A stretch of DNA of 34,227 nt from a virus: positions 14,201 to 48,427 of IMG/VR virus record IMGVR_UViG_3300030106_006063; one strand, written 5' to 3'. This document shows positions 7,028-22,290 of this stretch, piece after piece. The notes below the pieces were generated by a model. It did not search any database. It saw nothing but the letters and a program-made list of their open reading frames with translations, and had not been told where the DNA came from. The translations under genes were made by a program, and so were the position numbers. The first letter of the stretch is position 1; each line of letters begins with the position of its first letter.

Positions 7028-10000
7028 ATGCCGCTTACAGATGCGGAACGCAAGCAACAGGAATACGAAGAAACAATTCGCAAGGCGGCGCAAAACGCTG
7101 TTTTAAAAAAAACAGATCCAACCGCTGAAGAATTTCTTCGGTCATACTTTCGCAACGCGGCTGTTGCTAGGCTTGCGAGGGCTGATGCTGAAGATCGCGA
7201 AACTTCAGGTCTTGTTGCTGAACAATTTGCCCGTGGAATGTACCAGCCGATTACAGGCCTTGCTGCTAGAGCTGCAGGTTTTCTGCCAGAGCAGACGAAA
7301 AGAAGGCTTCGTGGATCTGGGGCAATTCCATACGGTGATGCTGAAACAGTGCAAGCTGTTGAAGGTGCGTTTCAATCTGCAGCGTATGAGCGTTACCCAG
7401 AGGGGAAGTTGGGGGGCGCACTCAAGATCGGCATGGCGGTTGGACAACAGCTTCCAGCTATGATCGGAGCGGGCATGACAGGTGGCTTGCCTGCTCTTGT
7501 CACCTATTACGGAACAACCAGTGCCAACGAAAGCTACTCTGAGGCAAAAAATAAAGGGATTGATGATGCAACAGCTCTTAAATACGCAGCGGTGGCAGGA
7601 GCGACAGAGGTTGCCGTAACATCTGCGTTTGCCGGAGCAGGGAAATTACTAGCTGGATCGAAGGTTGCTCCAGCAGGGCTGGGTGGTGCTGAGCGGGTTG
7701 CTGCTAGTTATGGAAGCAAAGCCAAAGAAACAAGCGAGGGGGTCTTGAAGGCGTTACTTCCTAAAACCCAAACTCTGGCTGATTACGGATCAGAGGTGGT
7801 GGAAGAGGTGGTGATCGAAACGATTAACAACCTTGCCCGCGCGGGTTTTGAAGTAGACATGGAGGCAGCAGATAGAGAAAGAATGGTAGAGTCTGCTTGG
7901 CAAGCGGCTCTGCAAGCTGTGGCGATGACTGGTGCATTAAAGACTCCTAAGTACATGGCTGATGTTGGTGGTCAGATCAGGGACAAGGTGCAGAGAAAAG
8001 GCTTTTACACTGACGAGGTAACAGACGGCAGCGAAATCATAGACGCAGCCAAGTCGCCGGATCCTGCTCCTGAGCAGCAAGCTGCCCAGCAGGAATCCCC
8101 ACAACAGCAACCTGAAGCTGAATTTGACCCACTGCAGATTGCATCAGACTTTCTTAACAACAACCGAACAGATGTTGACTCTCCAGATTTTCAAGCAGCT
8201 AAAAGTGTATTCGCACAAAATGAAAATCCCGATGCTCAGGAATTTGCCAAGCAGTTAGAAAAAAAAGAGTTTGAGATACGTGCAATCTTAGCTGCAGCAA
8301 AGAACGCAACGCAGCCTGCTGCTGAGCCTCAAACAGCTCCCGATGCAACTGCCGATCCAGCAGCTACACCTGAGCCAGAAGTCGCTGAACCGTTAAGTGC
8401 AGAGGAGCAGTTCGTACAAGACGGTACGGTTCCAGGGGGCATGCTTGATGCGATAGCTACGAAGATATCGCAGGGAGAGGAGCTAACTGGCTTTGAACAA
8501 GATGTTCGCAATGCCAATAGCGAAGATGTAAACAGAATATTGGAAGAGAGAAAAGCAGCTGCTGCTCCAACATCTGCACAGGAGCCAGAAGTAACTCCCC
8601 CCGAAACGCCACCGACAGATCCGTTTGAAACAGTAGTAAAAGGCTTTGAAGAAGCAATTGGTGAAGGCCGCACGTTCAACGAAACAGAAAAATTGCAACG
8701 CGCGCAGTTTGAAGCTGGCGATGATTCGTCTATAACCCAAGGGTTCGCAAATCGTGCTTTTAATCAAGCCGTTGCAAATATAAAAGCAAGAACAGAACAA
8801 GGAGCAGAAGATGGAGAAGAAGAAGCTGGGCAAGAAGCAGCAAGACAGCCAAGAGTTGATAGAGCAAACCCAAACAATCGTCCGGAGGTTGCAAATGTTG
8901 GTAGACCGGGAAAAGAAGGCACGCTCAACCTTGCAGACGGAAAAACAACAAAAGTCCGATATTACGTAGTTGAGGCCGATGACCTCACTCCATCACATGA
9001 TGCAAGAAGAAATTACCGAAGTAATCTTTTAGAGGGAGAGGAAGAAAACGAGCGTGCGTACGGTGACACTGATCAGGGTCGAGCTTCTCGGGAAACAGTA
9101 CGAAATATCGCTCAGGTAGACCCAAGCAAGGTGGAGCTGCTCACTTCCGACAACCCAACCGCAACTGATGGGCCTCCCATGGTTGAAGCACTTGGTTTGG
9201 TTCTCGGTGGCAATGCACGCGCCATGGGCATGCAGCTTGCGTATAGCAACGAAGATAACCCGGAGGCTGCTGCACGACTTAAAAAGCAGATGGTAGATTC
9301 CGCAGCAAAATTCGGGATAAACCCCGACGATGTTGAGCGTATGGATCAGCCGATCATTGTTCGCGAATTATTAGAGGCAGATTCCTTTGCCAACCTAAGT
9401 CGCCTGCTTAATGAAAACCTAACCACTGCAAAACCAGCAGAGACAGAGGCAGTGTCGAGAGGCAAAGCAGTTTCTGTCGATACTGCCAGAGCAATTGGCT
9501 CAGCAATGCAGTCACAGGGCGACGAGTTTCTCTCGATGCGAGATGTTCTCGGCAATGCAAAAATTGCTGGCAAGATAATAGACCTTCTTAGGAGTGATGG
9601 TGCGTGGACTAATGCAGATAGCACAAGGTATCTGAATGCACAAGGAAACCTTAACGAGGACGGCAAGAATGTAATCGAAGCTATGCTGGTGGGCAGGGTT
9701 ATCGATGACCCTGCGATTGCAGGTGCAGCACCGCCGGTGGTAAAGCAAAAGCTTTTGTTTGCAATGGGTGCGATAACGGCAATGAGTGCCGATGAAACGC
9801 ACGGAAAACGCTTTGGGGAAATACTTAAAACAGCAATAGAAGCTTATCCCGAATACAAAGCATCGGGCCAATCTGCATCAGAGTTTTTCTTAAAGCAGCA
9901 AAGTTTAATTGAGTTTGCTGGGCAAGGTGATCCATCTGTCATGGCTGTTGCAGATGCTCTCGAAAAGCTTCCTTTGCGCAAGTTTAGAGGTGCAATGAAG

Positions 10001-13000
10001 GAGCTAGCCACTGCACTAAACATTAATGATCAGGGCCAAATGGGCTTCTTCGATGATGGCTCAACAGAAACAGATGTTGATACTGCAATTGCTCAGCAGT
10101 ACGCCGAACGAACACAACAACCAACCATTGGGCGAAAGAAAGGAAAACCAGATGAACAACCATTGGGGGATAAGCGAAAACCTGACAGTACCGATAGCAG
10201 AGGGCCAGACGCAGATCAGCCGAGCGGAGTACGAAGACCTGCTGGTAGAGCAGATGAACAAAAGACTGGACGCGGAAGTGATCCAGAACGTGTGGATGGA
10301 CCTGACGGGGGAACTGATAGACCTGGACGAACCGGGGGAGATGATACTGCGGATACCACAGATGCGGATGGTGCTGGGGTGGGAGGACAGCGACGATCTG
10401 AGCCAAGAGATGCAGATCGACCCGAAGCAGGTGGGACGACCGGGGCCGATGGAGGAGGACAGCCTCCTGTCGATGGTGAACAACGCGGATCGGGTGAGGT
10501 AGATGAAGAGTCTGGTCTTTCTAGCGATGCAATGGAAAGCATCAGACAAAAAATGAAAGCGAAGTTTGCAGAAGATAAACCACAGGAGAAACAACCAAAG
10601 AAAAAACGTGGAGTCCAAAAGAAGAGCAGCGAAAAGCAGCCAAAGCCAATCTCGCAAGAAAAAGCTAAAGCACAGCAAGATGTGGACGACGCTGCGCAAA
10701 AGTTAATTGACTTGGTGAGAGGCTCAGACATTCCGAGTGATACAACAGACATGCTAGCTGGTCTTCCAGCAGACCAATTAATTGATGCTGCAGTCGAATA
10801 CGTGTCGGCACAGCTCAAATTAAAAGCAATTACGTTTAGGGAATTTGCACTTCTTGCGATTGAAAAATTTGGCGATGCAATAGAAGCATTAGCACCATAC
10901 CTAGAAGCTGCGTGGCGGGTCGCACGAGAGATGGGTATGACAAAAGAAAAAGCAGGCAAGATCTTAGATTTCCGAGAAGCAGCACAGTCTCGTCCAACTG
11001 CCGCTGCGTCACCTGCACAGCCAACCGGCGATGAGTTTCAGGTTGTTTACAGCCCTTCGTCTAAGGCTGGGGCATTCGGCACGCTTCTCCCGAAGAACCA
11101 CGAGGATGCTGTAAACAAGGCTCTCGCTGAGCTTGCCGAAAAGCATGGGTCAGTTGATCAATTTGTTGGCGACAGGCTTGGTTTTACTCCAGAGGAAATG
11201 AAAGATGGTCGCTTATCCGGCGAGCAGATAGATGCCGTTGCACTGGCGATTGCAGCCCATGAAGGAAACCGTGCGTACATCAATGGTGATCAAACCGGAA
11301 TAGGAAAAGGTCGCGTTGCTGCAGCCATGATTCGTTACGCGCAGCACCACCTAAAGAAGGTTCCTACGTTCTTTACGATTGATCCACCGCTATTTGCCAA
11401 CATGATGGAGGACTTGGAAGCAATAGGCGTTAAAAACGTGAAGCCGTTGATGGTCAACGCAATCACAGGTTCAAAGGCGATTAAGCTGCCTGACGGAACA
11501 ACCTTAAGCCAGGAGCGGGAAGATTCTGATAATAAGCTTACGCAAGTTGCCGAATCCCTTGCTAAAGGAAATGCTGCAAAAGCAGATGGAGAAACGTACA
11601 ACGTCATTTTTGCAACGTATTCACAGTTGAGTCCAGCACCAGACGGTGAGTACAAGCGAGTCGCGTTGCTTCGCAGTATTGCAAAGAGCAGCTTTATGAT
11701 ATTGGACGAAAGCCACAAGGCTGGCGGTAGTGCTGCTTCAGGAGCTGACAGCAGAGATGGCTCGCCTACTTTAGCTGGCAACATGCGTAGAATTCTTGCC
11801 AACGCATTCGGTGCTTATTTCTCAAGTGCAACTTGGTCTAAGTCTCCAGCCACAACTGACCTATATGCCCTGACGGGCATGGCAGCTGCTACTTACAACA
11901 ATGCTGCATTGCTTGCAGAAACTATTCGCGCAGGTGGCGTCCCACTGCAGCAGGTAAACTCGCAGATGGCTGTTGAGAACGGCACGATGATGCGAAGAGA
12001 GCGTGATTTCACAGGAATAGAGTTTTCGCCACAGGTGGTTGAGGTTGACTTAGACCCAATCGACAAAACAGCGGAAATACTGTCAGCAATAAATGCCTTT
12101 GACCAAGAAAAGAAAAAAGTCACAAAGCGGCTGCATCGCCACCGCAACAGGATGAACGAAAGTCTGCCGAAAGGCCAGACGATCACTAAGGTTAGTGACA
12201 CGAGGTTCACGCAAAGATTAAACGATGTTTCGTCAGCACTGTTGCTTGCGCTTAAGGCTGAAGCAACAGCAGATGCAGCGATTGATTCACTGGACAATGG
12301 AGAATCGCCGGTTATCTATATCGACAATACTTTTGAGTCAATGCTTGTTGAGTACGCAAAAAGCAAAGGCATAGAAGTAGGTGAGGAAATTGACATTACT
12401 TACAAAGACTTCCTTCTTGATTATCTCGAAAAAGCAAGGACGGTGACCTACACTCGCGAGGTTGCAAATGAAGAAGGACAGATAAAAACAGTTAAAGAGA
12501 AAAAAAGATTACCAGACGACGATCTGCCGGAAGCGATGCTTCGTCAGTTTAAAAAAGCAAAAGAGCTGATCGAAAAAAGCGACATTGACCTACCTGCTTC
12601 ACCCATCGATGCGATCAGAAAAAAACTAGAGGACAACAATCGCAGCGTGGCAGAAATAACTGGGCGTAAAAATGTCATCAATTACATTGACGGTAAGCCA
12701 AGGTTGAGCAAGCGACCTGCGGCGGAAACAGGACCACAGGGCATAAACAATAGTATCAATGGTTTTAACAGTAAGAAAATCGATGTTCTTATCATTAACG
12801 AAAAAGGGGCCACTGGCGTAAACATGCACGCTAGTGAGCAATTTGAGAATCAGCAAAAGCGAAGGATGATCATTGCTCAAGCAGCGAAGAATATTGACAC
12901 GTTCATGCAATCACTAGGCCGTGTTAATCGAACAGGCCAAGTGGTTAAACCCGCTTACAACCTGATCATGACAAACGCACCAGCTGAGACTCGCCCAGCC

Positions 13001-16000
13001 TCGATGCTTGTCCAGAAACTTGCTGGGTTAAACGCAAACGTAACAGCTTCAGACCAAGGCAGTGTCTCATTCGACACGCCGAACATCTACAACAGGATTG
13101 GTGACAACATCGTCGCCGAGTATGTCGCTGAACGCCCATCTCTCAACGATGAGTTGGGTGGACTTGTTAGGGTCAACAGGAACAACCAGCCCAAAAAAAC
13201 AGAGGGTGTTGCGTTAAAGGTAAGCGGTCGAATGATAATGATGCCGCGTGCGGAGCAGGACGCATTTTGGGAGGCCGTCACCTTTGCATTTAACGAGCAA
13301 ATTGCTGCTCTTGATGCAATCAACAAAAACCCCTTGTCTGTCAAAACAGTTGACATGCAAGCAGAAACCTTAGAGACACTGCAAATTTTTGAGGGCGAAG
13401 CAGACGCGAGCAACGTGTATGAACGCCCAGCGTTTTTGGAAAAGGTGAGTTCTGAAAAGCAAGGCGAACCATATTCGTCTAATGAGGTCACCGAATCCGT
13501 ACATAAGTTTTATGGTCATGATCCGCAAGGAAGAGCAACGCTGCAAGGCTCTTCCAATCAGTGGCTCGACAAGACAATGCAACAAGTTGAGTCGCAGGTT
13601 GAGCAGAAGCTTGGTGAAATCAAAGACCCCGCCTCACGCAAAAAACAGGGAAGGCATCAAAGTGACCAACTGCAAAAGTTGCGGGAACTGCTGTATAAGT
13701 TTGCTCCTGGTAAAAACATCATGTACGTGGAAGGCGAATTTCTTGAAGGCCAAGTTAACTCACTCACTGATGGCGTAGTGCTTTCTCTAACACACAAGTC
13801 CAAGTCAGGCTTTGCGACAGCTAGGTCTGGTTGGTTTGCAGAGATTGCTTTAGCCAGCCCTGACAAAGTAATCAGCGTTCCGTTGTCTAGGCTCATATCG
13901 TCTGAGCCGGATCAAGATTTTGCGGTTCTTTCGGGCGACGGAAAGTTTATGGAGCAACGTGTGCTTGATCGCTTTGATGAGCCATCGTCCAGCAACAAAG
14001 AGGTTCGGTACATTGCCACTGGAAACCTGCTCGCTGCGTTTGCGCTTGTAAAAGACGAACAGGGCAGGGTTACTTTTTACACAGACAAAGAGGGCAATCA
14101 AAAAACCGGCATCTTGTTGCCTCGCAAATTTGTCTTCGCAGATTGGCAAAAGAAACAGCCGATAGCAGCATCGACTGTTTCTGATGTGCGGGCGATACTT
14201 GCCTTGGATGGTTTTCTTAAAACACCTGATGGCATTGTCACAATCACTGCACCGAACAAGTTCTCTGCGCTGCAGGTTAGTTTCAAAAATGACCAGATGC
14301 GAAGCAGGGCTTACCTCGAAGACAAAGGCATTACAGATGCTGCCAAGCAGGACTACGAGCCTTACGGCAGTGGGTACGTAAAGGTCACTGTCAGAAAGCG
14401 AGCAGATCAAGATGCTCTCATACAACATCTGCTTGATGCATATGGCGTAGTTTCGCCAAAGCAATCAGCAAACGAAAAAGCTACGTGGACTGACGAAAAG
14501 ATGACAGTCCCGTCTATGGAGCCGGATGCGAAGCAGAAGAGGCTTGGTGGCAAGAGAGGTCCGAAGACAACACAACAACAGCAAAAGCGTCTTGGGGCAA
14601 GAAAAGCTGTTACCGAGGAAGGTAAGGCTTTGCTGAACGAAATCGCTAACGATGGCGACAAGCGTGAAGTTGGCATGCCGAGTATTGCTAGATTTTTGAT
14701 TGAAGCTTTCGAGGGCATTCCCTTCTTCACAAGAAGCCAAACAACAGCCAAGTCGCCTGCCTTGTTTCGCGATCAAGGCTCAGCAATCTTCACGCGATCA
14801 TCTGACTTCAGTGGCAACCTGCATGAGGCGGGTCACGCGATGTACGCAATGCTCACTGACACGAACCCTTTGTGGTTGTTTGAGAAGATGAACGACATGG
14901 CAGACCTTGCTGCCAAAAACATGGAAGACGGTCTCGCTAGTGCGCCCACCGCCAAGGAAGGATTTGCAGAGTTCGTAAGGTTGTTTGTAACTGACCCAGC
15001 GAGCCTTGACCCTGCGTTGAAGCGAGAAGTTGAGAACATGATCGCTAAGGTAGACGTTCAGGCTTTAAACGTCTTGCGTGATGCAGCAATTGCTCATGCT
15101 CGTCACATAAGCAGGCCGGAAGCAGAGCAGGACATTGCAAATAGAAACGATGCTGCTATGCAATCTAGCAAGCTAGACAAGTTTATGCAGGGTGCGAAGA
15201 TTGGTGCTGTGCATATATTTGGCGAGGGAAATGTCCCGCACATGATAATGCAACAACTTTACGCAAAAGCCACTGGAACAAACGCTGCTGAGATGGCAGA
15301 CCCGACTCCGCTCTCTAGGCTGATGCGGTCTGTTTTCAAAAGACGCAGCGCACAACAGCAGAGAAATGCAGAAGAAGTCGCAGCGGAAATGGAAAACATG
15401 CACGACACTCCCGCTGACTTAGATCGTGCGCATGCAGATAGACTTCGCGCTCCCGCTGAGATTGGTCAGGCGTTGCAAGGCTCAAAAAGCTTCCAAGGCA
15501 TCGCTGTGATGCTCGGCGACAATGGGTTTGCAAATCTCGATGATGGAGATTTAAACAAGCTGCGTCGTGCTGGGTTCAGCATTCCAGAAAGAGCTGACTT
15601 TGCTAGGCAAGGACAAGAGCAAGTTTTGCACGACAAGTCGCTTCAACAAATCATGGACTCCATCCCAGATAGCGAGTATGCAGAATTTGAGCAAGCCGCA
15701 ATGGACCGTGCAGCAGTTGAACGATGGGAGAAAAACCAGCAAGAGTATCCGGGCAGAAATGATCCTGCGACCCCTCATAGGCATCCTGCTGCATTGAAGA
15801 AGTCAGTGGACGAGGCATTCGCAGAAAACCCTCATTGGGAACAAGCGGCTGCTGATATCAAAAAGTTTATGGATCAATCACTTCTTCTTTCCTTGCTTTC
15901 AGGAACTAAGTCTGCTGACGAACTAGCAAAGATCATTACTGAATACAAATACTACGTACCTCTGCAAAGGCAGCAGGGCGATGTTGGAGCCGGATCGCGA

Positions 16001-18913
16001 GGCAGCATAAGTGCTTCTGATCCTAACTTTGGGATTTACCGTGCGTATGGCTCGCTCCGTCCATACTTGAATATTGAGAACTCCGTAATCAATCGAATTA
16101 CGCGGGCAATTGGTGACTACCACACAAACGCTGTTAACCGAGCTGTTTTAGAGTTCTCTCGCTCTATCGCAAATAATCGCGCATTTCCATTTGATGTGCG
16201 CAAAGACGCTGAGCAAATGATGATACCGCTCAAGAAAGACATAGCGGTAGCAGCAAAAATACCCAAAGAGGAAATGGTAAAAATCGCTGCAAACTTTGCT
16301 AACAGGCAAATCCTTACGGATTCCGGCGTAAATGTTGATGGGCTTAAGGACAGCGAACTGGAAGCAAAGTTTGAGGAAACAAATAAGTCGCAGTTCTTTA
16401 TAAAACCAGAGAACATAAACTTCGAGGTACTTGGTCGCACAGAGTACAGGCAAGTTCGGCCTAACATGCCAAGTGTTCAAGGCGTTTTTGAAAATGGCAA
16501 GCTGACTTATTACCTAGTTAACGATCCGTTAATGAACATGTTCATGCGAATGAGCGTTGGTGACTCGCGTACTGGAAAAGGTGGTAATGCGTTATTGAAG
16601 TTCATCACGAGATCGTTTAACGAAGTCGCTAAGCCCTGGAAAGAACAATACACACGCACGCTAGGGTTTTTAGTAAACAACTTAATTCGCGATGCACAAA
16701 CAGCAATGGTGAATCACCCCGACATCGACGCGAACAAGTTTGTTCCTTACATGTTCCAAGCTCAAGCTCTAATGGCGCAGCTTGGAATTGGCAAAGGAGC
16801 TGAGTTCGCTGACATGGCGAACAAGGCTGCAGAGTATAGGGCAAGCTATGTTGATGCAGCAGATGCTCCTGCAAACAAAAAGCTGCTTAAGTCGTTTGTG
16901 AATCTGATAACAGATGGAATTTATAGAGAAGGTTTTCTTGGACAAAGCACAGGCGAGAAGGTGACGAGCCTGTTTGGTATTGCAAGTTCAATAGTGCTGA
17001 AGCCTATGGACATCATCACGACCTTGACAGGCTTAAAGAAAGCTTCGGATTTTACCGAATCGTTAACGCGAAAAGGTGCGTTCATCGTTGCTAAGAAAAA
17101 AGGCTTGTCTGATGCTAAAGCGAGAGAAAGGTTTGATAAGATTTCTGGGAACTTCGCACAAAGGCAGTACAACCGCAGTGCCGCCGAGCTGGTAAAAGGC
17201 ATGGGCTTTCTGAATCCAAACCTGCAAATCTTATCGCAGCTAGTGGTGTCAGTCACGCCTTGGAACCCAGCTAAGCGTCACAAGCTAAACGCCTACATGG
17301 TAGCTAGCTTGGTTGGCGTAGGCATCGCTTCAAAGATAGCAGAGATAATGCTTTCAGAAATGCTTGAGGACGACGACGAAAGATACGACAGGCTTTTGAG
17401 AGCAGCCGAAACCCCTGAGCAAGAAAAGCTCCGAAGCATGGCAATACCGCAACCTTGGGGCGGAACTCTCCGGCTTCCTTACGACAATAACATTACGGGT
17501 GCAATCGTTTCGTACGCAGCAAATACTTTTGGCGAGTGGTACTACGGAAGCGATTTCATTGCCGATTTGCGTGGAGAGAAAGCAGTCAAGACTGACGTGG
17601 ATTCCGCAGAAAGGCGTTGGGAGTTGCTAAAAAAATCGGCTGGCTCTGTTGGCTTCAACATTGGTTCTTTCTTACCCCCTAGGGTTGGAACAGCTGTTGA
17701 ATTATCAGCGAACGAAAATTTTTACCTAGGGAGTGAAATCGTCCCACAAAACCTATTGGACCGCAATTTAGGCAACGATCACATGGCGTTTTACAACTCA
17801 ACGCCTGAGCTGTATGTATGGGCTTCTAATAAGTTGAGAAGCATGCCGTTCTTTGAGCCATCTGTATCGCCGCTGACTATCCAGCATGGCTTCCGTGGGC
17901 TGACTCACAGTTTCTACGACGACACTATTAAGTATTTAGACAAAGTAAAACGTGGCGGTGTTGACCACCTCAAAGACAACCCGTTTACACGAGGCTTGCA
18001 AAACCGAGATCCTCGCGGCTTCTACTCTAGAAGCGTGCAGCGAGTGATGGACGATGTCGCGGAAGGCAGGAAGATAGAGCTTGAGCTTAAAGACAACAAA
18101 GGCTTAAGCAATGAGCAAAAGGCGACACAAAGGAAAAAGCTCAAAGAGCTGCAGGAAATCATGGCTGTTGGTAAGCAGCTTGAAGAGTTGCGAGCGGAGG
18201 CGAGGCTGTACGCGATGGATGATGAATTACGCGACCCTGTAAAAGAAGCAGAAATAAGCAGGAAGATGTCTGACATTGCACGAGGATTTATCATGGATGA
18301 TAAGCGTGACATCAGCTACATGAATGCTTACTTCGACGAGCAGATGGATAAGGTTACTCCTTACCAGCCAACCAAGAACAAGGCTTACAAAGACGGCAAG
18401 GGATCCCCGACTCTGACGATGAAGCCTGTCCGTCCCGGCATAGCTAGACCAGCAGCAGGTTCAGTTGGAAATGCACAGGCAAAAGCACAATGGAAAAAAT
18501 ACGACGAAGATTTCACCGCGTACAAAAAGTCAAGCAAGAAGTTAGCAAGCTTTCAGCTGGACATGGATCTTGCTCGTGAGTTTACCGTTGACTACATGAA
18601 ATGGCTGGCAAACAACACGGATCAACCTGGCGTTCCTGAGAAGATTGATGAGATTTTGAAGAGCGAAGATCTGTTGAAAATTGTTGACCCTAACAATGAG
18701 CCATACATTCCGAGGGCAAGAAAAGGTGTGGATCGAGTCAAACAGTTGCGTGAATACTTGGAGGCTAAAAAAACTCGAAAGCGAGCAATCGCTCAGGCAC
18801 AGCAGTTGTACCAAGTTCGCAAAGCTATTCTTAAGCAGCGTGATTTTCAAAAGGCTGCAGCCGAGCAGCAGGAATTAGAGAGGCTGCAAGAGGTGAACCC
18901 AGCAGCTAATTGA
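7028..18913 (+). CDS. Giant polyvalent virion protein: ParB-like, SF2 helicase, zincin and LPD38-like domains, 3961 aa
   Basis: The largest gene, about a third of the window. Residues 125-210 and 255-305 are Ala/Gly-rich amphipathic or hydrophobic helices, possibly membrane-active. Residues about 340-620 are disordered. A DdrB/ParB-like domain follows (VVEADDLTPSHD near 647; GGNAR 727-731). After a Gly/Asp/Arg linker (about 1030-1160) comes a Strawberry-notch/DarB-type helicase: Walker A GDQTGIGKGR 1420-1429, DESH 1560-1563, SSAT 1599-1602, motif VI QSLGRVNRTGQ 1961-1971. A zincin motif HEAGH lies at 2599-2603 with possible third ligand E2644 or E2648. An LPD38-like region (NNLIRDAQTA from 3217) and charged coiled coils finish it. 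This matches the polyvalent proteins of phages and conjugative elements, injected with DNA to protect it or subvert the host. AAGG at 7017-7020 supports the start. There is no methyltransferase domain, unlike P1 DarB. Confidence 0.9.
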   Translation: MPLTDAERKQQEYEETIRKAAQNAVLKKTDPTAEEFLRSYFRNAAVARLARADAEDRETSGLVAEQFARGMYQPITGLAARAAGFLPEQTKRRLRGSGAIPYGDAETVQAVEGAFQSAAYERYPEGKLGGALKIGMAVGQQLPAMIGAGMTGGLPALVTYYGTTSANESYSEAKNKGIDDATALKYAAVAGATEVAVTSAFAGAGKLLAGSKVAPAGLGGAERVAASYGSKAKETSEGVLKALLPKTQTLADYGSEVVEEVVIETINNLARAGFEVDMEAADRERMVESAWQAALQAVAMTGALKTPKYMADVGGQIRDKVQRKGFYTDEVTDGSEIIDAAKSPDPAPEQQAAQQESPQQQPEAEFDPLQIASDFLNNNRTDVDSPDFQAAKSVFAQNENPDAQEFAKQLEKKEFEIRAILAAAKNATQPAAEPQTAPDATADPAATPEPEVAEPLSAEEQFVQDGTVPGGMLDAIATKISQGEELTGFEQDVRNANSEDVNRILEERKAAAAPTSAQEPEVTPPETPPTDPFETVVKGFEEAIGEGRTFNETEKLQRAQFEAGDDSSITQGFANRAFNQAVANIKARTEQGAEDGEEEAGQEAARQPRVDRANPNNRPEVANVGRPGKEGTLNLADGKTTKVRYYVVEADDLTPSHDARRNYRSNLLEGEEENERAYGDTDQGRASRETVRNIAQVDPSKVELLTSDNPTATDGPPMVEALGLVLGGNARAMGMQLAYSNEDNPEAAARLKKQMVDSAAKFGINPDDVERMDQPIIVRELLEADSFANLSRLLNENLTTAKPAETEAVSRGKAVSVDTARAIGSAMQSQGDEFLSMRDVLGNAKIAGKIIDLLRSDGAWTNADSTRYLNAQGNLNEDGKNVIEAMLVGRVIDDPAIAGAAPPVVKQKLLFAMGAITAMSADETHGKRFGEILKTAIEAYPEYKASGQSASEFFLKQQSLIEFAGQGDPSVMAVADALEKLPLRKFRGAMKELATALNINDQGQMGFFDDGSTETDVDTAIAQQYAERTQQPTIGRKKGKPDEQPLGDKRKPDSTDSRGPDADQPSGVRRPAGRADEQKTGRGSDPERVDGPDGGTDRPGRTGGDDTADTTDADGAGVGGQRRSEPRDADRPEAGGTTGADGGGQPPVDGEQRGSGEVDEESGLSSDAMESIRQKMKAKFAEDKPQEKQPKKKRGVQKKSSEKQPKPISQEKAKAQQDVDDAAQKLIDLVRGSDIPSDTTDMLAGLPADQLIDAAVEYVSAQLKLKAITFREFALLAIEKFGDAIEALAPYLEAAWRVAREMGMTKEKAGKILDFREAAQSRPTAAASPAQPTGDEFQVVYSPSSKAGAFGTLLPKNHEDAVNKALAELAEKHGSVDQFVGDRLGFTPEEMKDGRLSGEQIDAVALAIAAHEGNRAYINGDQTGIGKGRVAAAMIRYAQHHLKKVPTFFTIDPPLFANMMEDLEAIGVKNVKPLMVNAITGSKAIKLPDGTTLSQEREDSDNKLTQVAESLAKGNAAKADGETYNVIFATYSQLSPAPDGEYKRVALLRSIAKSSFMILDESHKAGGSAASGADSRDGSPTLAGNMRRILANAFGAYFSSATWSKSPATTDLYALTGMAAATYNNAALLAETIRAGGVPLQQVNSQMAVENGTMMRRERDFTGIEFSPQVVEVDLDPIDKTAEILSAINAFDQEKKKVTKRLHRHRNRMNESLPKGQTITKVSDTRFTQRLNDVSSALLLALKAEATADAAIDSLDNGESPVIYIDNTFESMLVEYAKSKGIEVGEEIDITYKDFLLDYLEKARTVTYTREVANEEGQIKTVKEKKRLPDDDLPEAMLRQFKKAKELIEKSDIDLPASPIDAIRKKLEDNNRSVAEITGRKNVINYIDGKPRLSKRPAAETGPQGINNSINGFNSKKIDVLIINEKGATGVNMHASEQFENQQKRRMIIAQAAKNIDTFMQSLGRVNRTGQVVKPAYNLIMTNAPAETRPASMLVQKLAGLNANVTASDQGSVSFDTPNIYNRIGDNIVAEYVAERPSLNDELGGLVRVNRNNQPKKTEGVALKVSGRMIMMPRAEQDAFWEAVTFAFNEQIAALDAINKNPLSVKTVDMQAETLETLQIFEGEADASNVYERPAFLEKVSSEKQGEPYSSNEVTESVHKFYGHDPQGRATLQGSSNQWLDKTMQQVESQVEQKLGEIKDPASRKKQGRHQSDQLQKLRELLYKFAPGKNIMYVEGEFLEGQVNSLTDGVVLSLTHKSKSGFATARSGWFAEIALASPDKVISVPLSRLISSEPDQDFAVLSGDGKFMEQRVLDRFDEPSSSNKEVRYIATGNLLAAFALVKDEQGRVTFYTDKEGNQKTGILLPRKFVFADWQKKQPIAASTVSDVRAILALDGFLKTPDGIVTITAPNKFSALQVSFKNDQMRSRAYLEDKGITDAAKQDYEPYGSGYVKVTVRKRADQDALIQHLLDAYGVVSPKQSANEKATWTDEKMTVPSMEPDAKQKRLGGKRGPKTTQQQQKRLGARKAVTEEGKALLNEIANDGDKREVGMPSIARFLIEAFEGIPFFTRSQTTAKSPALFRDQGSAIFTRSSDFSGNLHEAGHAMYAMLTDTNPLWLFEKMNDMADLAAKNMEDGLASAPTAKEGFAEFVRLFVTDPASLDPALKREVENMIAKVDVQALNVLRDAAIAHARHISRPEAEQDIANRNDAAMQSSKLDKFMQGAKIGAVHIFGEGNVPHMIMQQLYAKATGTNAAEMADPTPLSRLMRSVFKRRSAQQQRNAEEVAAEMENMHDTPADLDRAHADRLRAPAEIGQALQGSKSFQGIAVMLGDNGFANLDDGDLNKLRRAGFSIPERADFARQGQEQVLHDKSLQQIMDSIPDSEYAEFEQAAMDRAAVERWEKNQQEYPGRNDPATPHRHPAALKKSVDEAFAENPHWEQAAADIKKFMDQSLLLSLLSGTKSADELAKIITEYKYYVPLQRQQGDVGAGSRGSISASDPNFGIYRAYGSLRPYLNIENSVINRITRAIGDYHTNAVNRAVLEFSRSIANNRAFPFDVRKDAEQMMIPLKKDIAVAAKIPKEEMVKIAANFANRQILTDSGVNVDGLKDSELEAKFEETNKSQFFIKPENINFEVLGRTEYRQVRPNMPSVQGVFENGKLTYYLVNDPLMNMFMRMSVGDSRTGKGGNALLKFITRSFNEVAKPWKEQYTRTLGFLVNNLIRDAQTAMVNHPDIDANKFVPYMFQAQALMAQLGIGKGAEFADMANKAAEYRASYVDAADAPANKKLLKSFVNLITDGIYREGFLGQSTGEKVTSLFGIASSIVLKPMDIITTLTGLKKASDFTESLTRKGAFIVAKKKGLSDAKARERFDKISGNFAQRQYNRSAAELVKGMGFLNPNLQILSQLVVSVTPWNPAKRHKLNAYMVASLVGVGIASKIAEIMLSEMLEDDDERYDRLLRAAETPEQEKLRSMAIPQPWGGTLRLPYDNNITGAIVSYAANTFGEWYYGSDFIADLRGEKAVKTDVDSAERRWELLKKSAGSVGFNIGSFLPPRVGTAVELSANENFYLGSEIVPQNLLDRNLGNDHMAFYNSTPELYVWASNKLRSMPFFEPSVSPLTIQHGFRGLTHSFYDDTIKYLDKVKRGGVDHLKDNPFTRGLQNRDPRGFYSRSVQRVMDDVAEGRKIELELKDNKGLSNEQKATQRKKLKELQEIMAVGKQLEELRAEARLYAMDDELRDPVKEAEISRKMSDIARGFIMDDKRDISYMNAYFDEQMDKVTPYQPTKNKAYKDGKGSPTLTMKPVRPGIARPAAGSVGNAQAKAQWKKYDEDFTAYKKSSKKLASFQLDMDLAREFTVDYMKWLANNTDQPGVPEKIDEILKSEDLLKIVDPNNEPYIPRARKGVDRVKQLREYLEAKKTRKRAIAQAQQLYQVRKAILKQRDFQKAAAEQQELERLQEVNPAAN
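10152..10502 (+). CDS. Candidate nested ORF (+1 frame) inside the giant gene, 116 aa
   Basis: Within the disordered linker of the giant protein, the +1 frame is open from ATG 10152, with AAAGGA ending at 10144 (7-nt spacing), to TAG 10502. Its product looks more protein-like than the host frame there. It has alternating hydrophobic and charged residues such as QNVWMDLTGELIDLDEPGE and LRIPQMRMVLGWEDSDDL. The main frame is a monotonous Asp/Gly/Arg/Pro/Thr linker. Open shifted frames do arise easily from GAT-GGA-type repeats, so it may be a by-product. I recognise no homologue. Confidence 0.22.
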   Translation: MNNHWGISENLTVPIAEGQTQISRAEYEDLLVEQMNKRLDAEVIQNVWMDLTGELIDLDEPGEMILRIPQMRMVLGWEDSDDLSQEMQIDPKQVGRPGPMEEDSLLSMVNNADRVR

Positions 18914-18961: not shown

Positions 18962-19384
18962 ATGCCTGAAGACAACTATTACAGGGATGCTGAACTATTG
19001 CGGGTGATCGACGGCGATACCTTTGTGCTGAGCATTGATCTAGGTTTCGGGATTTGGGTTCGTCAGCACGTAAGGCTGGCTGGCCTCGATACACCTGAAG
19101 TTCGCGGAACGGAGCGTTTGGCCGGAAAGTTTGTGGCCGAGAAGATTTCGGAGTGGCTCAGCGGGCGAGTGAGTTGCGTACTAGCGTCGAAACAATTCTC
19201 AACCGGAAAGTACGGGCGTTGCCTCGGTGAGATTTATTTTGGCGACCTGTCAATTAATCAGTGGCTGCTTGAGCAGGGACTTGCGTGGCAGACAGATTCG
19301 AGCGGAAGAGTTGCTGCTCGCGATGTATCCCATTTGCACATTCCCCCTGGCATCAAGCAACAAGTGAGGGAGGCTCAGGCATGA
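18962..19384 (+). CDS. Thermonuclease (Snase-like) family protein, 140 aa
   Basis: This is a staphylococcal-nuclease-fold enzyme predicted to cleave DNA or RNA with Ca2+. The catalytic pattern is intact: VIDGDTF with D17/D19, RLAGLDTPE with R38, D43 and E46, and GKYGR with R86 (equivalent to R87 of the Staphylococcus enzyme). The length is about that of the core domain, with no visible signal peptide. The ATG at 18962 follows AGGAG (18951-18955, 6-nt spacing); an upstream TTG at 18944 lies inside a hairpin and is not needed. It leads a run of overlapping small membrane-protein genes. Degradation of host nucleic acid is plausible. Confidence 0.88.
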   Translation: MPEDNYYRDAELLRVIDGDTFVLSIDLGFGIWVRQHVRLAGLDTPEVRGTERLAGKFVAEKISEWLSGRVSCVLASKQFSTGKYGRCLGEIYFGDLSINQWLLEQGLAWQTDSSGRVAARDVSHLHIPPGIKQQVREAQA

Positions 19385-19683
19385 TAAATAGCAAAGAGCA
19401 GCGAGTAGAGGCTCGCAGGATCGCGAGGGAAGAGTATCTCGCAGCTGCAGCCGTGTTTTTGACCCCATCTAAGCACGCTGAGGCACTGAAGGAGCAGGCT
19501 GTTGAAGCCACACGCAGGCGTTTGAAACAAAACAGGCGATACAAGAGCTTGGTCGGAAGCTTGCTCTTAGCAGTACTGATGAAAGTCGTAATGAAGCTCA
19601 TCGAGCAATGGATCGAGGAAAACCTTTTCTCGGCGAGTGAAGTTCCAGAAGAGTACCAAAAATCGGAGCATGGTTATGAATGA
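19381..19683 (+). CDS. Small single-span membrane protein, 100 aa
   Basis: The ATG overlaps the nuclease stop (ATGA), with GGGAGG upstream, so translation is coupled. Residues 1-55 are highly charged and helical (EQRVEARRIAREEYLAAAA). One hydrophobic segment lies at about 56-76 (SLVGSLLLAVLMKVVMKLI), followed by an acidic tail. I recognise no family. The predicted topology is one membrane anchor with a cytoplasmic amphipathic helix. Together with the next gene it may form a holin or membrane-remodelling set, but that is inferred only from size and context. Confidence 0.75.
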   Translation: MINSKEQRVEARRIAREEYLAAAAVFLTPSKHAEALKEQAVEATRRRLKQNRRYKSLVGSLLLAVLMKVVMKLIEQWIEENLFSASEVPEEYQKSEHGYE

Positions 19684-20080
19684 GATTAGCTCGAACCGCG
19701 CGTTCAGGATTATTATCGGGAGCTTCGTGATCGTGGCTGCCTGGAAATTGTGGCGCGCTAATTTCTTCGCAGCCTTCATGGCAGAGGATAGTGAAGGCTT
19801 CAGTGATCCAGCGTTGGTGACGCTGGTTGTGAGCGTTCTGCTGAGTAGTCTGGAGTTGGTTGGCATACTTGCGATCTTCCTCTGTACATCGATTTTGGCT
19901 CCGGTAATTAACCCCCTTGCTGACATGGCAGGAGAGCTAAAAAACAAGCTCAGGGACAATTTGTCCCTAGGCCAAAACGAAAAGCCGCAAGTCCTTGATA
20001 CCAATAAACTTGCAGCAGTGCTTCAAGGCCTAAAAAACAGATTAGATGACATCGAAAAAAAGGTGTCAGGAGATGATTGA
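19676..20080 (+). CDS. Two-span membrane protein with C-terminal coiled coil, 134 aa
   Basis: The start at 19676 is chosen because GGAG lies 7 nt upstream and it overlaps the previous gene by only 8 nt; upstream ATGs in this frame lie within that gene without a site. Hydrophobic segments lie at about residues 9-26 and 46-77. The C-terminal 50 residues are charged and heptad-like (LAAVLQGLKNRLDDIEKKV). Two spans plus a charged tail resemble class II holins, but the second segment is long and the size is larger than usual. The holin role is a guess. Confidence 0.72.
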   Translation: MNEISSNRAFRIIIGSFVIVAAWKLWRANFFAAFMAEDSEGFSDPALVTLVVSVLLSSLELVGILAIFLCTSILAPVINPLADMAGELKNKLRDNLSLGQNEKPQVLDTNKLAAVLQGLKNRLDDIEKKVSGDD

Positions 20081-20492
20081 TATCACCTCAGAGAAGGGGC
20101 CAAGAACACGGTTTCCGACACTTGTGATTGTGGTGTTGCTAGCAGCGTATTGGTTTTGGGTTGGCAGAAACGAGCCAACGCCAACGCCAGTGCTGCCGAA
20201 GCTGCAAAGGGTTGTGTTTGTGACCTGCCCAGAGGCCTCTACGCGGCAGGAAATCATCAGCAGCAGCCAAGTTATCGACTCGATCCTAGACGCGCTTAGC
20301 GTGGATCGTAGGACCGTTCTGGCTGACAGTGAGCCGGAAGAGGAATGGCTTGAGGAAGCACTCGTCATCGGATCGGGCCAGTGTCCCTGCGTTGTTTTCT
20401 GTCGAGCAGATGGATCGTTCGACGCTGTGCCTACCCCCGAAAGCATCGAGGAGATGAAAGGTCTGATTAGAGAGCGAACCAATGGACTTTGA
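20073..20492 (+). CDS. Membrane-anchored small protein, 139 aa
   Basis: One hydrophobic segment (residues 14-30, PTLVIVVLLAAYWFWVG) follows a basic/polar N-terminus, then a Pro/Thr linker and a soluble domain of about 95 residues. An N-in/C-out anchor is likely, which would place the domain in the periplasm. The domain has alternating beta and alpha character (LQRVVFVTCPEAS; a CPC motif in GQCPCVVFCRADG), giving a faint thioredoxin-like impression, but I cannot support that fold. It overlaps its upstream neighbour by 8 nt and its downstream one by 11 nt, so it is part of a tightly coupled cassette with the papain-like peptidase. Confidence 0.7.
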   Translation: MIDITSEKGPRTRFPTLVIVVLLAAYWFWVGRNEPTPTPVLPKLQRVVFVTCPEASTRQEIISSSQVIDSILDALSVDRRTVLADSEPEEEWLEEALVIGSGQCPCVVFCRADGSFDAVPTPESIEEMKGLIRERTNGL

Positions 20493-21231
20493 ATTCGGTT
20501 TTACTGGCTATGAACCACGCGATTATCAAGAGGTTCCGTTTGGCTCAGTGTTTGATTCGGCTGAGTATCAGATCGAATTGTTAGACCGTAAGCATTGGTG
20601 GGAGCTTTGGCGGGAGAGTGAGGCAGCAGAAAGCACTCCAGCCCACCGACATAAGAAACACTGCCAGATTTTTAGCCAGGGGGCTTTCCCTTTTTGTTGG
20701 GGTTGGGCAGCTAGCAATGCCGTGATGAATCTTCAATCACTACGATTAGATCAGCCACGCTTGCTCAATGGACACTCCACCGCCTGTTGGCGAACGGGAT
20801 ACAAAAAACGCGGAGGCTATGGGGCCGAGGCGTGCAAAGCTGTGAGTGACTTTGGTGTGGCGGAGTTCGATCTTTGGCCTGAATATTCCATGAACAAAAA
20901 GCTCGCAAAGAGCCGTAAAGTGCTGGAAAACGCGGCAAAAAACAAACTTGTTAGTTTTTACGAGCTACCGCGACCGACCGGCGATTGGGTTGTTAGCTCG
21001 CTGCTCCAGGGCTACCCCGTTGTCAGTTGCTTCAGCTGGTGGCGACATGCTGTGCTTGCGGTCGGGTTGCGATTCAAATCACAGCAAGCTGCTGAACGCG
21101 GAGAGTATGAGCTACTCGTAGCAAACAGCTGGGGTGAACGCTGGGGCGACGGTGGCTATGGGTGGCTTACTGGTTCAAAAAGGTTCCCAACGGAGGCGTT
21201 GGTTGCTACAGACTTAAGGTTGAGAAAATGA
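20482..21231 (+). CDS. Papain-like (C1 family) cysteine peptidase, 249 aa
   Basis: Papain catalytic features appear in order: oxyanion Gln Q66 and nucleophile C72 (SQGAFPFCWGWAAS) with exactly the papain Q19-C25 spacing, H189 in WWRHAVLAVG, and N215 in the hallmark block VANSWGERWGDGGYGWL. The usual GSCWAF is altered to FPFCWGW. The H-to-N gap is 26 residues, longer than in papain. There is no signal peptide or long pro-region; about 60 N-terminal residues precede the active-site Cys. Phages rarely encode C1 peptidases; CHAP or NlpC/P60 enzymes are the common Cys hydrolases. Lying between membrane-protein genes, it could act in lysis, virion maturation or attack on host proteins. The substrate is unknown. 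Confidence 0.88.
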   Translation: MDFEFGFTGYEPRDYQEVPFGSVFDSAEYQIELLDRKHWWELWRESEAAESTPAHRHKKHCQIFSQGAFPFCWGWAASNAVMNLQSLRLDQPRLLNGHSTACWRTGYKKRGGYGAEACKAVSDFGVAEFDLWPEYSMNKKLAKSRKVLENAAKNKLVSFYELPRPTGDWVVSSLLQGYPVVSCFSWWRHAVLAVGLRFKSQQAAERGEYELLVANSWGERWGDGGYGWLTGSKRFPTEALVATDLRLRK

Positions 21232-21569
21232 GAATCACGAAAACCATGTTGATCGAAGTTTGCCTTGGCCTCGTAGCGTTGCTTGCTGTCTGTCTTGTTC
21301 TCGCGTGGGCATCGCAGGGCGTCTCACGCAAACAGATTCAAGATCACACTGAGCGCATGGTTGAGCCTATCGTTCCAGAGCTAGTTGCGCCGCAGGAACC
21401 AATTGGCAATGACGTAAACAAGAAAAACAAAATTTCTCCTGATTCAACATCTGCTGATTTAGGGGGAAATGACACACAAGCAGAAAAAACTTTCAAGAAT
21501 TCAACGCGAAGGGTTGGAATCCTACGCCGCATGCTATATCGTCGTAGCCGTGCAACTATCACGGAGTAA
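21228..21569 (+). CDS. N-terminally anchored small protein, 113 aa
   Basis: The ATG overlaps the peptidase stop (ATGA), with AAGG about 8 nt upstream. A hydrophobic segment at residues 7-29 (MLIEVCLGLVALLAVCLVLAWA) follows MRITKT, giving an N-in anchor. The rest is polar and flexible, with a basic C-terminus (RRVGILRRMLYRRSRA). The layout resembles inner-membrane spanin or accessory lysis proteins, but there is no detectable coiled coil and no partner lipoprotein (lipobox) in the overlapping frames, so I do not claim a spanin. It is the last gene of the membrane/peptidase cassette. Confidence 0.7.
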   Translation: MRITKTMLIEVCLGLVALLAVCLVLAWASQGVSRKQIQDHTERMVEPIVPELVAPQEPIGNDVNKKNKISPDSTSADLGGNDTQAEKTFKNSTRRVGILRRMLYRRSRATITE

Positions 21570-21639: not shown

Positions 21640-22290
21640 ATGGGAGATTTTGCGGAGCAAGGTAGTGCCGAGTGGTTTGCTGAGCGGCTCGGTATTCCTA
21701 CTGGATCTAAGTCCGGCCTTCTTATTGGTAAGGGCCGAAGTGCTGAGTTTACAAACACAGCAATTACTTATCAGACGCAGCTGGTCTGTGAGCGGTTGAC
21801 AGGGCTGATGGCCGAATCAATCGACAACAAATATACGCAGCACGGCCATGCCAACGAGCCGCTTGCTCGTCAGCTATTCGACTTCCACAACGACGATGGA
21901 TTTGTTGTCGAGGAATGTGGATTCATTCGCCATCCCGAAATTGATAATTTCGGCAGCTCGCCAGACGGGCTGATTGACGGTGGCTGCATTGAAATTAAAT
22001 GCCCCTACACGGTAGCAAACCACATCCTGACTATCGAATCAGGTCAGGTACTTAACGCTGACTATGGCTGGCAAATACAAAGTCATATGGCTGTCACCGG
22101 CACTGACTTTTGCAAGTACATCTCTTTCCATCCTGATGTACCAACTGAGCTTCAGTTGTGCGTAATCCACGTTACACGCGACGACGAGATGCAAGACAAG
22201 CTTGCGGATCGTATTCCGAGGTTTAACGAGCAAATTGACGAAAGAGTGCAGGAAATAAGAAGCAAGGTGGGGGAATTAGTAGATGCCTAG
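21640..22290 (+). CDS. YqaJ/lambda-exonuclease-type recombination nuclease, 216 aa
   Basis: The PD-(D/E)XK fold of viral recombination exonucleases is clear: E73 in GHANEPLARQLF, D109 in SSPDGL, E118 and K120 in IEIKCP, and YGWQIQSHM (Q145, Q147). These enzymes degrade one strand of duplex DNA from an end so that an annealing protein can pair the exposed single strand. I chose ATG 21640, 8 nt after GGAG. The same frame is open back to an ATG at 21469, but that would overlap the preceding gene by 101 nt. The next two genes (annealing protein, SbcC-like ATPase) complete the module. Confidence 0.9.
   Translation: MGDFAEQGSAEWFAERLGIPTGSKSGLLIGKGRSAEFTNTAITYQTQLVCERLTGLMAESIDNKYTQHGHANEPLARQLFDFHNDDGFVVEECGFIRHPEIDNFGSSPDGLIDGGCIEIKCPYTVANHILTIESGQVLNADYGWQIQSHMAVTGTDFCKYISFHPDVPTELQLCVIHVTRDDEMQDKLADRIPRFNEQIDERVQEIRSKVGELVDA

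Follow-up and report, generated by a model that had tools for sequence, protein, structure and literature searches.

A papain-type cysteine peptidase gene within an overlapping membrane-protein cassette of a probable planctomycete virus, and its possible part in host lysis

The gene cassette and its surroundings

The stretch of DNA analyzed here (below, the window) is 34,227 nucleotides long and corresponds to bases 14201-48427 of IMG/VR virus record IMGVR_UViG_3300030106_006063, which has 48,427 bases in all. The 14.2 kb ahead of the window carry the end of a portal gene, a scaffold-like gene, a capsid gene and tail genes, and since the record starts inside the portal gene it is incomplete. 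The genes that concern us are as follows, in window coordinates:

7028-18913, + strand: polyvalent protein, 3961 aa (PF18763, PF13872, PF13871); the last large gene ahead of the cassette
18962-19384, + strand: staphylococcal-nuclease-type endonuclease (PF00565, E 5e-10; phrog_452 endonuclease, E 2e-27)
19381-19683, + strand: membrane protein 1, 100 aa, with a single hydrophobic segment; overlaps the nuclease gene by 4 bases
19670-20080, + strand: membrane protein 2, 136 aa, hydrophobic segments and then a C-terminal coiled-coil-like tail
20073-20492, + strand: anchored partner protein, 139 aa, N-terminal membrane anchor and a Cys-containing domain of ~95 aa
20482-21231, + strand: peptidase C1 (papain-like), 249 aa
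21228-21569, + strand: membrane protein 3, 113 aa, single N-terminal transmembrane (TM) segment; last gene of the operon
21640-22290, + strand: YqaJ/RecE-type exonuclease (PF09588, E 1e-17; phrog_149, E 4e-41)

Six of these genes, from 18962 to 21569, overlap or touch one another and form an operon that runs from the nuclease (ATG start with AAGGAG ahead of it) through three membrane proteins and C1 to a fourth membrane protein. The partner gene lies directly upstream of C1 and overlaps it by 11 bases, and the gene for membrane protein 3 overlaps the end of C1 by 4 bases (ATGA). The original prediction, made from the sequence of the window, placed the C1 gene at exactly these coordinates and coupled it to a nuclease and four small membrane proteins; the PF00565 match of the nuclease and the single overlapping run of genes agree with it. 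Each of the four small proteins that adjoin C1 has at least one hydrophobic segment, and none of them matched a holin or spanin in PHROG or Pfam. Membrane protein 1 had no match of any kind in these two collections, and membrane protein 2 had none above cut-off and is holin-like in size only.

The cassette has the same orientation as the virion genes and is situated between the giant polyvalent virion-type gene and YqaJ/RecE-type recombination genes. The cassette is bounded by a recombination module whose first gene is that of the YqaJ exonuclease (the longest ORF there starts at 21469). In the polyvalent protein a ddrB-ParB domain is combined with a strawberry-notch-type helicase and with HEAGH, a metalloprotease-like motif; it has a homologue in the related contig G015 over residues 2535-3833, and the proteins that occupy this position in relatives range from 1825 to 4485 aa. 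A tail-type virion protein gene (L008:12228-14300) that precedes the window in the record, and whose final 100 bases overlap the window start, encodes dockerin type I repeats (PF00404, E 2e-6), an uncommon feature in a structural protein of a phage. The original prediction saw no classic endolysin, and Pfam and PHROG revealed no peptidoglycan hydrolase in the scanned ORFs of the incomplete 48.4-kb record; the scanned ORFs of four relatives gave none either. No prohead protease was recognized in the record.

Relatives of the virus and its probable host

The capsid protein is common to 13 other contigs, and the longer of these also have much of the head and tail module in common. The C1 gene is absent from the capsid-sharing relatives that were searched, including the closest ones, G011 and G015, and among these phages it is therefore, to judge by partial contigs, an accessory gene. 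Searches of IMG/VR with the neighboring membrane protein, YqaJ, SMC-like and polyvalent proteins returned either nothing or G015 only. In G011 the place of the C1 cassette, after the polyvalent gene, is occupied by genes for a ClpP-family protein and for a Trypsin_2 protease whose start is leader-like (L073:721-1290 and L072:18752-19402).

A prophage in the Planctomycetota genome G403 has homologues of the capsid protein (E 1.9e-71) and of the portal, adaptor and tail proteins, and the host of the virus is therefore, on this sequence evidence, most likely a planctomycete. Downstream of its polyvalent gene the same prophage carries two genes with hydrophobic starts (L102:2503-3841). One of them (L102:3203-3841) looked papain-like by eye from its Cys/His/Asn pattern and was rejected, as it had no Pfam or PDB match and an hhalign probability of 1.3%.

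The C1 peptidase

The only Pfam match of the C1 protein is PF00112 Peptidase_C1 (22.2 bits against a cut-off of 20.7, E 1.6e-4), and that scan found no peptidoglycan-cleaving or wall-binding domain in it. A sequence search of the PDB gave cathepsin L and papain chains at E values of about 3e-5 to 1e-4, with cathepsin L the best (E 2.8e-5) and papain aligned at residues 63-227. An AF2 model built with 31 homologues in the alignment (pLDDT 68.8, pTM 0.74) was matched by Foldseek to cathepsin K and xylellain with probability 1.00 and TM scores (target) of up to 0.67; the input alignment consisted of C1 proteins, so this model is not fully independent of the sequence evidence. When the model was compared with a viral structure library its top neighbor came from a phage and carries the annotation "Peptidoglycan binding-like"; a lower-ranked match is annotated "N acetylmuramidase".

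Residues Q66, C72, H189 and N215 occur in this order and are invariant in all 12 aligned members of the subfamily (below), as well as in a 7-sequence viral alignment. Both the papain fold and this residue set had been proposed in the original prediction, at these same positions, and both are borne out: the fold is predicted from Pfam, PDB and model comparisons alike, and the catalytic residues are kept in all homologues. We looked for a hydrophobic leader, a signal peptide and TM segments in the C1 protein and saw none. It matched no PHROG family (phrog_16701 included) and had no direct match among phage or plasmid records; its closest homologues reach at best 28-30% identity. Its defining features, then, place the product of ORF 20482-21231 in peptidase family C1, as an intact member and a predicted enzyme.

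A C1 subfamily in Planctomycetota

When 392 Planctomycetota genomes were searched, a single full-length C1 relative came up, in genome G216 (E 3.8e-23). The window protein and this G216 prophage protein are identical at 67 of 237 positions (28%, E 4e-26), their similarity is full-length, and they have in common the motifs GYxxRGGxGxEAxK...DFG...WP and WxRH. With a subfamily profile built from these two sequences, members were found in 13 of 398 genomes of the Planctomycetota class to which G216 belongs and in none of 398 Pseudomonadota genomes.

Are these bacterial genes parts of proviruses? Five of the loci (in G216, G663, G436, G735 and G568) lie at most 12 kb from portal, capsid or terminase genes on the same strand, as follows: G216 has a portal gene 8 kb away and a capsid gene, G663 a portal gene 6 kb away, G735 and G568 a terminase gene 9-10 kb away, and G436 a relative of the G216 capsid gene 12 kb away. 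Given 22 matches to the portal and terminase families in about 85 Mb, chance would place about 0.07 of 11 loci within 12 kb of one, and 4 were observed by those two families. For the remaining 6 of these 11 bacterial loci a phage context is not proven, and two of them (L121 and L122) have host-like neighbors. The G216 prophage carries both C1 and the partner gene, yet its portal and capsid are unrelated to those of the window virus. Judged by these gene neighborhoods, the same type of protease recurs in planctomycete proviruses.

Genes that accompany C1

In 10 of 12 C1 loci a secreted or anchored partner gene is directly upstream of C1, overlapping it or within about 160 bases. The partner proteins have an N-terminal hydrophobic start that by eye is signal-like or lipobox-like, and a C-terminal domain of ~100 aa; pairwise similarities of these domains to the G216 member have z values of 7.5 to 22.9. 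The partner in the window resembles the domain of only one of them, L128 (z 6.3, 1 of 300 shuffles), which in turn links to the remaining partners at z 7.5; a profile of the remaining partner domains fails to detect the window's partner. We regard it as a likely homologue of the planctomycete partner family, in the same position and joined to the family through this single intermediate. Two other assignments were discarded. A thioredoxin fold read by eye in the window's partner found no PDB match and an hhalign value of 0.5% against the downstream thioredoxins (the single-sequence AF2 model of this protein is poor, pLDDT 51), and a partner-like protein of G403 has no similarity to the family.

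Directly downstream of C1, 5 of the 12 loci have a gene whose secreted product contains a thioredoxin motif (WCxxC). That of G216 encodes a Trypsin_2 protease (PF13365, E 1.5e-10) with WCGPC after it, and its weak match to Thioredoxin stays under the cut-off; that of L125, to which L126 is near-identical, weakly matches DegQ-type proteases; that of L127 matches thioredoxin chains (E 0.0012); and that of L128 has the thioredoxin motif only. With 5 of 12 loci, the thioredoxin gene is not a defining feature of all subfamily members. The window cassette has no thioredoxin gene downstream of C1, where the next genes are those for a single-TM protein and YqaJ.

C1 peptidases in other phages

Among 50,697 phage records, 30 have a gene that matched one C1 query and 8 a gene that matched another. 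The original prediction had called the C1 signature rare in phages, and by these counts it is uncommon and not unique. In five other phages or phage contigs C1 adjoins lysis genes, and in a sixth phage it is fused into the endolysin. The latter is Alicyclobacillus phage MMB025, in which one protein annotated as an endolysin combines C1, an Rv2525c-type glycoside hydrolase and PG_binding_1. The gene order is GH25 endolysin, C1 and a holin-family protein in Thermoanaerobacterium phage THSA-485A, and lysin A genes, C1, holin, two membrane proteins and lysin B in Gordonia phage Lilbeanie. The other three are IMG/VR contig L005, where a small TM protein, C1 and an Amidase_2 lysin follow one another and the same Cu_amine_oxidN1 domain ends both enzymes; L002, where C1 is followed by a holin (phrog_36209, E 2e-34); and L003, where three small membrane proteins precede C1 and an M15 peptidase follows it.

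C1 genes also occur away from lysis genes, in BillNye, Sycamore, Shady, XacN1, RAS14, FLC9 and contig L006. In the jumbo phages FLC9, XacN1 and RAS14 (L084, L088 and L090) a lone C1 gene is on the strand opposite to its neighbors, with a phosphatase gene adjoining in two of them, and there C1 probably has a different role. Contig L006, a 17.5-kb viral contig, has two tandem C1 genes (L006:6322-8041) inside its head-tail region.

Possible functions of the C1 peptidase

Since this type of C1 gene recurs in planctomycete proviruses and C1 genes are found in the lysis gene sets of unrelated phages, it probably helps to break open the host envelope. We favor, with reasonable though not high confidence, the reading that C1 is a lysis-associated envelope protease of a Planctomycetota virus, encoded in a late, envelope-directed lysis cassette. 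Under this reading the leaderless C1 protein would be made in the cytoplasm and held inside until the small, putatively holin-like membrane proteins open the inner membrane, whereupon the released protease would cut envelope protein or peptide alongside its membrane-anchored partner; we infer all three of its premises, namely the activity of C1, a holin function for the membrane proteins and a substrate located in the envelope. Also in its favor are the place of the operon between virion and recombination genes, the link to planctomycete hosts, the partner gene upstream of C1 in 10 of 12 loci, the thioredoxin-motif gene downstream in 5 and the top viral structural neighbor with its "Peptidoglycan binding-like" annotation. 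C1 would not be a classical endolysin, because it has no peptidoglycan-hydrolase or wall-binding domain. The lack of a wall-binding domain, and that of any holin or spanin family match among the window's membrane proteins, count against the lysis reading, as do the seven phages and contigs with C1 away from lysis genes, the closest relatives without C1, the lack of a thioredoxin gene in the window, the single intermediate that joins the window's partner to its family and the 6 bacterial loci whose phage context is not proven. The original prediction had offered three roles, lysis, host shutoff and virion maturation, each as a new use of the fold. Lysis has gained support from the C1 genes in other phages' lysis modules and the other two have found no positive evidence; with five such modules and one endolysin fusion known, a lysis role is also less unprecedented than was claimed.

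A protein without a leader peptide or TM segment could instead act in the cytoplasm as a host-takeover protease that degrades specific host proteins (e.g. RNA polymerase subunits, proteases or defense proteins), and the recombination module that adjoins the cassette and the jumbo-phage C1 genes that stand alone outside lysis regions are both in keeping with this. We consider it unlikely, however, as the gene overlaps its neighbors within a run holding four membrane-protein genes, the G216 and G663 loci are close to virion genes, and the secreted or anchored partners of the sister loci, with their frequent secreted thioredoxin or trypsin-like protease, point to the envelope. Those secreted partners also do not fit a protease of virion maturation or processing that would cut the 3961-aa polyvalent protein or head proteins. 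Such a role would agree with the position of C1 a few genes downstream of the polyvalent gene, with a record in which no prohead protease is recognized, and with the two proteases that follow the polyvalent gene of G011; but G011 and G015 share the head genes and have no C1, and the G216 prophage has C1 and its partner with an unrelated portal and capsid, so that C1 is not conserved with head genes and we think this role improbable.

Membrane and secreted partners might also accompany an envelope protease that serves some other purpose, such as superinfection exclusion, receptor removal or cargo expressed by the provirus. The L121 and L122 loci have no phage genes nearby, and the C1/partner pair may thus also serve cells; in the window, however, the cassette comes immediately after the virion genes and on their strand, and C1 is linked to lysis modules in unrelated phages, and we give this explanation a small chance. 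It is very hard to credit that C1 is a captured host gene without function or a decaying pseudogene: the want of any close homologue would allow it, but the frame is open, it is part of a coupled, overlapping operon, and its catalytic residues are invariant across 12 divergent members.

Lysis of planctomycete hosts

To our knowledge, phage lysis of Planctomycetota, bacteria with little peptidoglycan, has hardly been studied. The recurrent cassette of a papain-type protease and secreted partners, with thioredoxins in some lineages, provides concrete candidate genes and could reveal a protein-degrading route to lysis. A cysteine-rich, disulfide-linked protein envelope has been reported for some planctomycetes, and it is conceivable, though we rather doubt it, that Planctomycetota phages lyse their hosts at least partly by proteolysis, and not by hydrolysis of peptidoglycan alone, with C1 dismantling a disulfide-stabilized protein envelope after small membrane proteins release it. 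In several lineages a secreted thioredoxin or trypsin-thioredoxin fusion might join C1 in this breakdown, and, speculatively, C1 with the thioredoxin or trypsin-like protease of the sister cassettes would suit an envelope held together by disulfides. A point against the envelope-protease reading as a whole is that planctomycetes do have some peptidoglycan, later work having found it at low abundance in several species (PMC5814848).

Comparison with known systems

The window protein has in common with family C1 (PF00112; papain, cathepsins and bacterial xylellain) the Gln-Cys-His-Asn set, the fold and the NSWGxxWGxxGYxW block, and differs from its members in being short (249 aa) and in having no recognizable propeptide or signal peptide; the region ahead of the catalytic His is shortened, and identity to solved C1 members is about 20%. 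The Planctomycetota proviral cassettes (G216, G663, G436, G735 and G568) have the same C1 subfamily amid phage neighbors and, in most cases, an anchored or secreted upstream partner gene, at the place where the window has its likely homologue; some of them add a secreted thioredoxin or trypsin-thioredoxin gene, which the window does not have. The phrog_16701 "peptidase" C1 proteins of THSA-485A, Lilbeanie and MMB025 are likewise phage-encoded and lie beside or are fused to lysis enzymes, whereas the window C1 is of a different subfamily and has no classic endolysin or named holin alongside.

The open-licence literature that we found gives no account of papain-type C1 peptidases recurring among the lysis genes of several unrelated phages, and no C1 peptidase appears there as a recurrent lysis-module member apart from the C39-like N5 of mycobacteriophage lysins. 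CHAP and NlpC/P60 endolysins are papain-like superfamily enzymes that serve phage lysis (PMC10318531); they belong to other families and cut peptidoglycan, and the window C1 matches neither of them. Of the published precedents found, the closest is N5 in mycobacteriophage Lysin A, a papain-type, C39-like cysteine peptidase that also takes part in phage lysis (Payne and Hatfull, PMC3314691); N5 is a domain within a modular endolysin, whereas the window enzyme is a stand-alone C1 peptidase.
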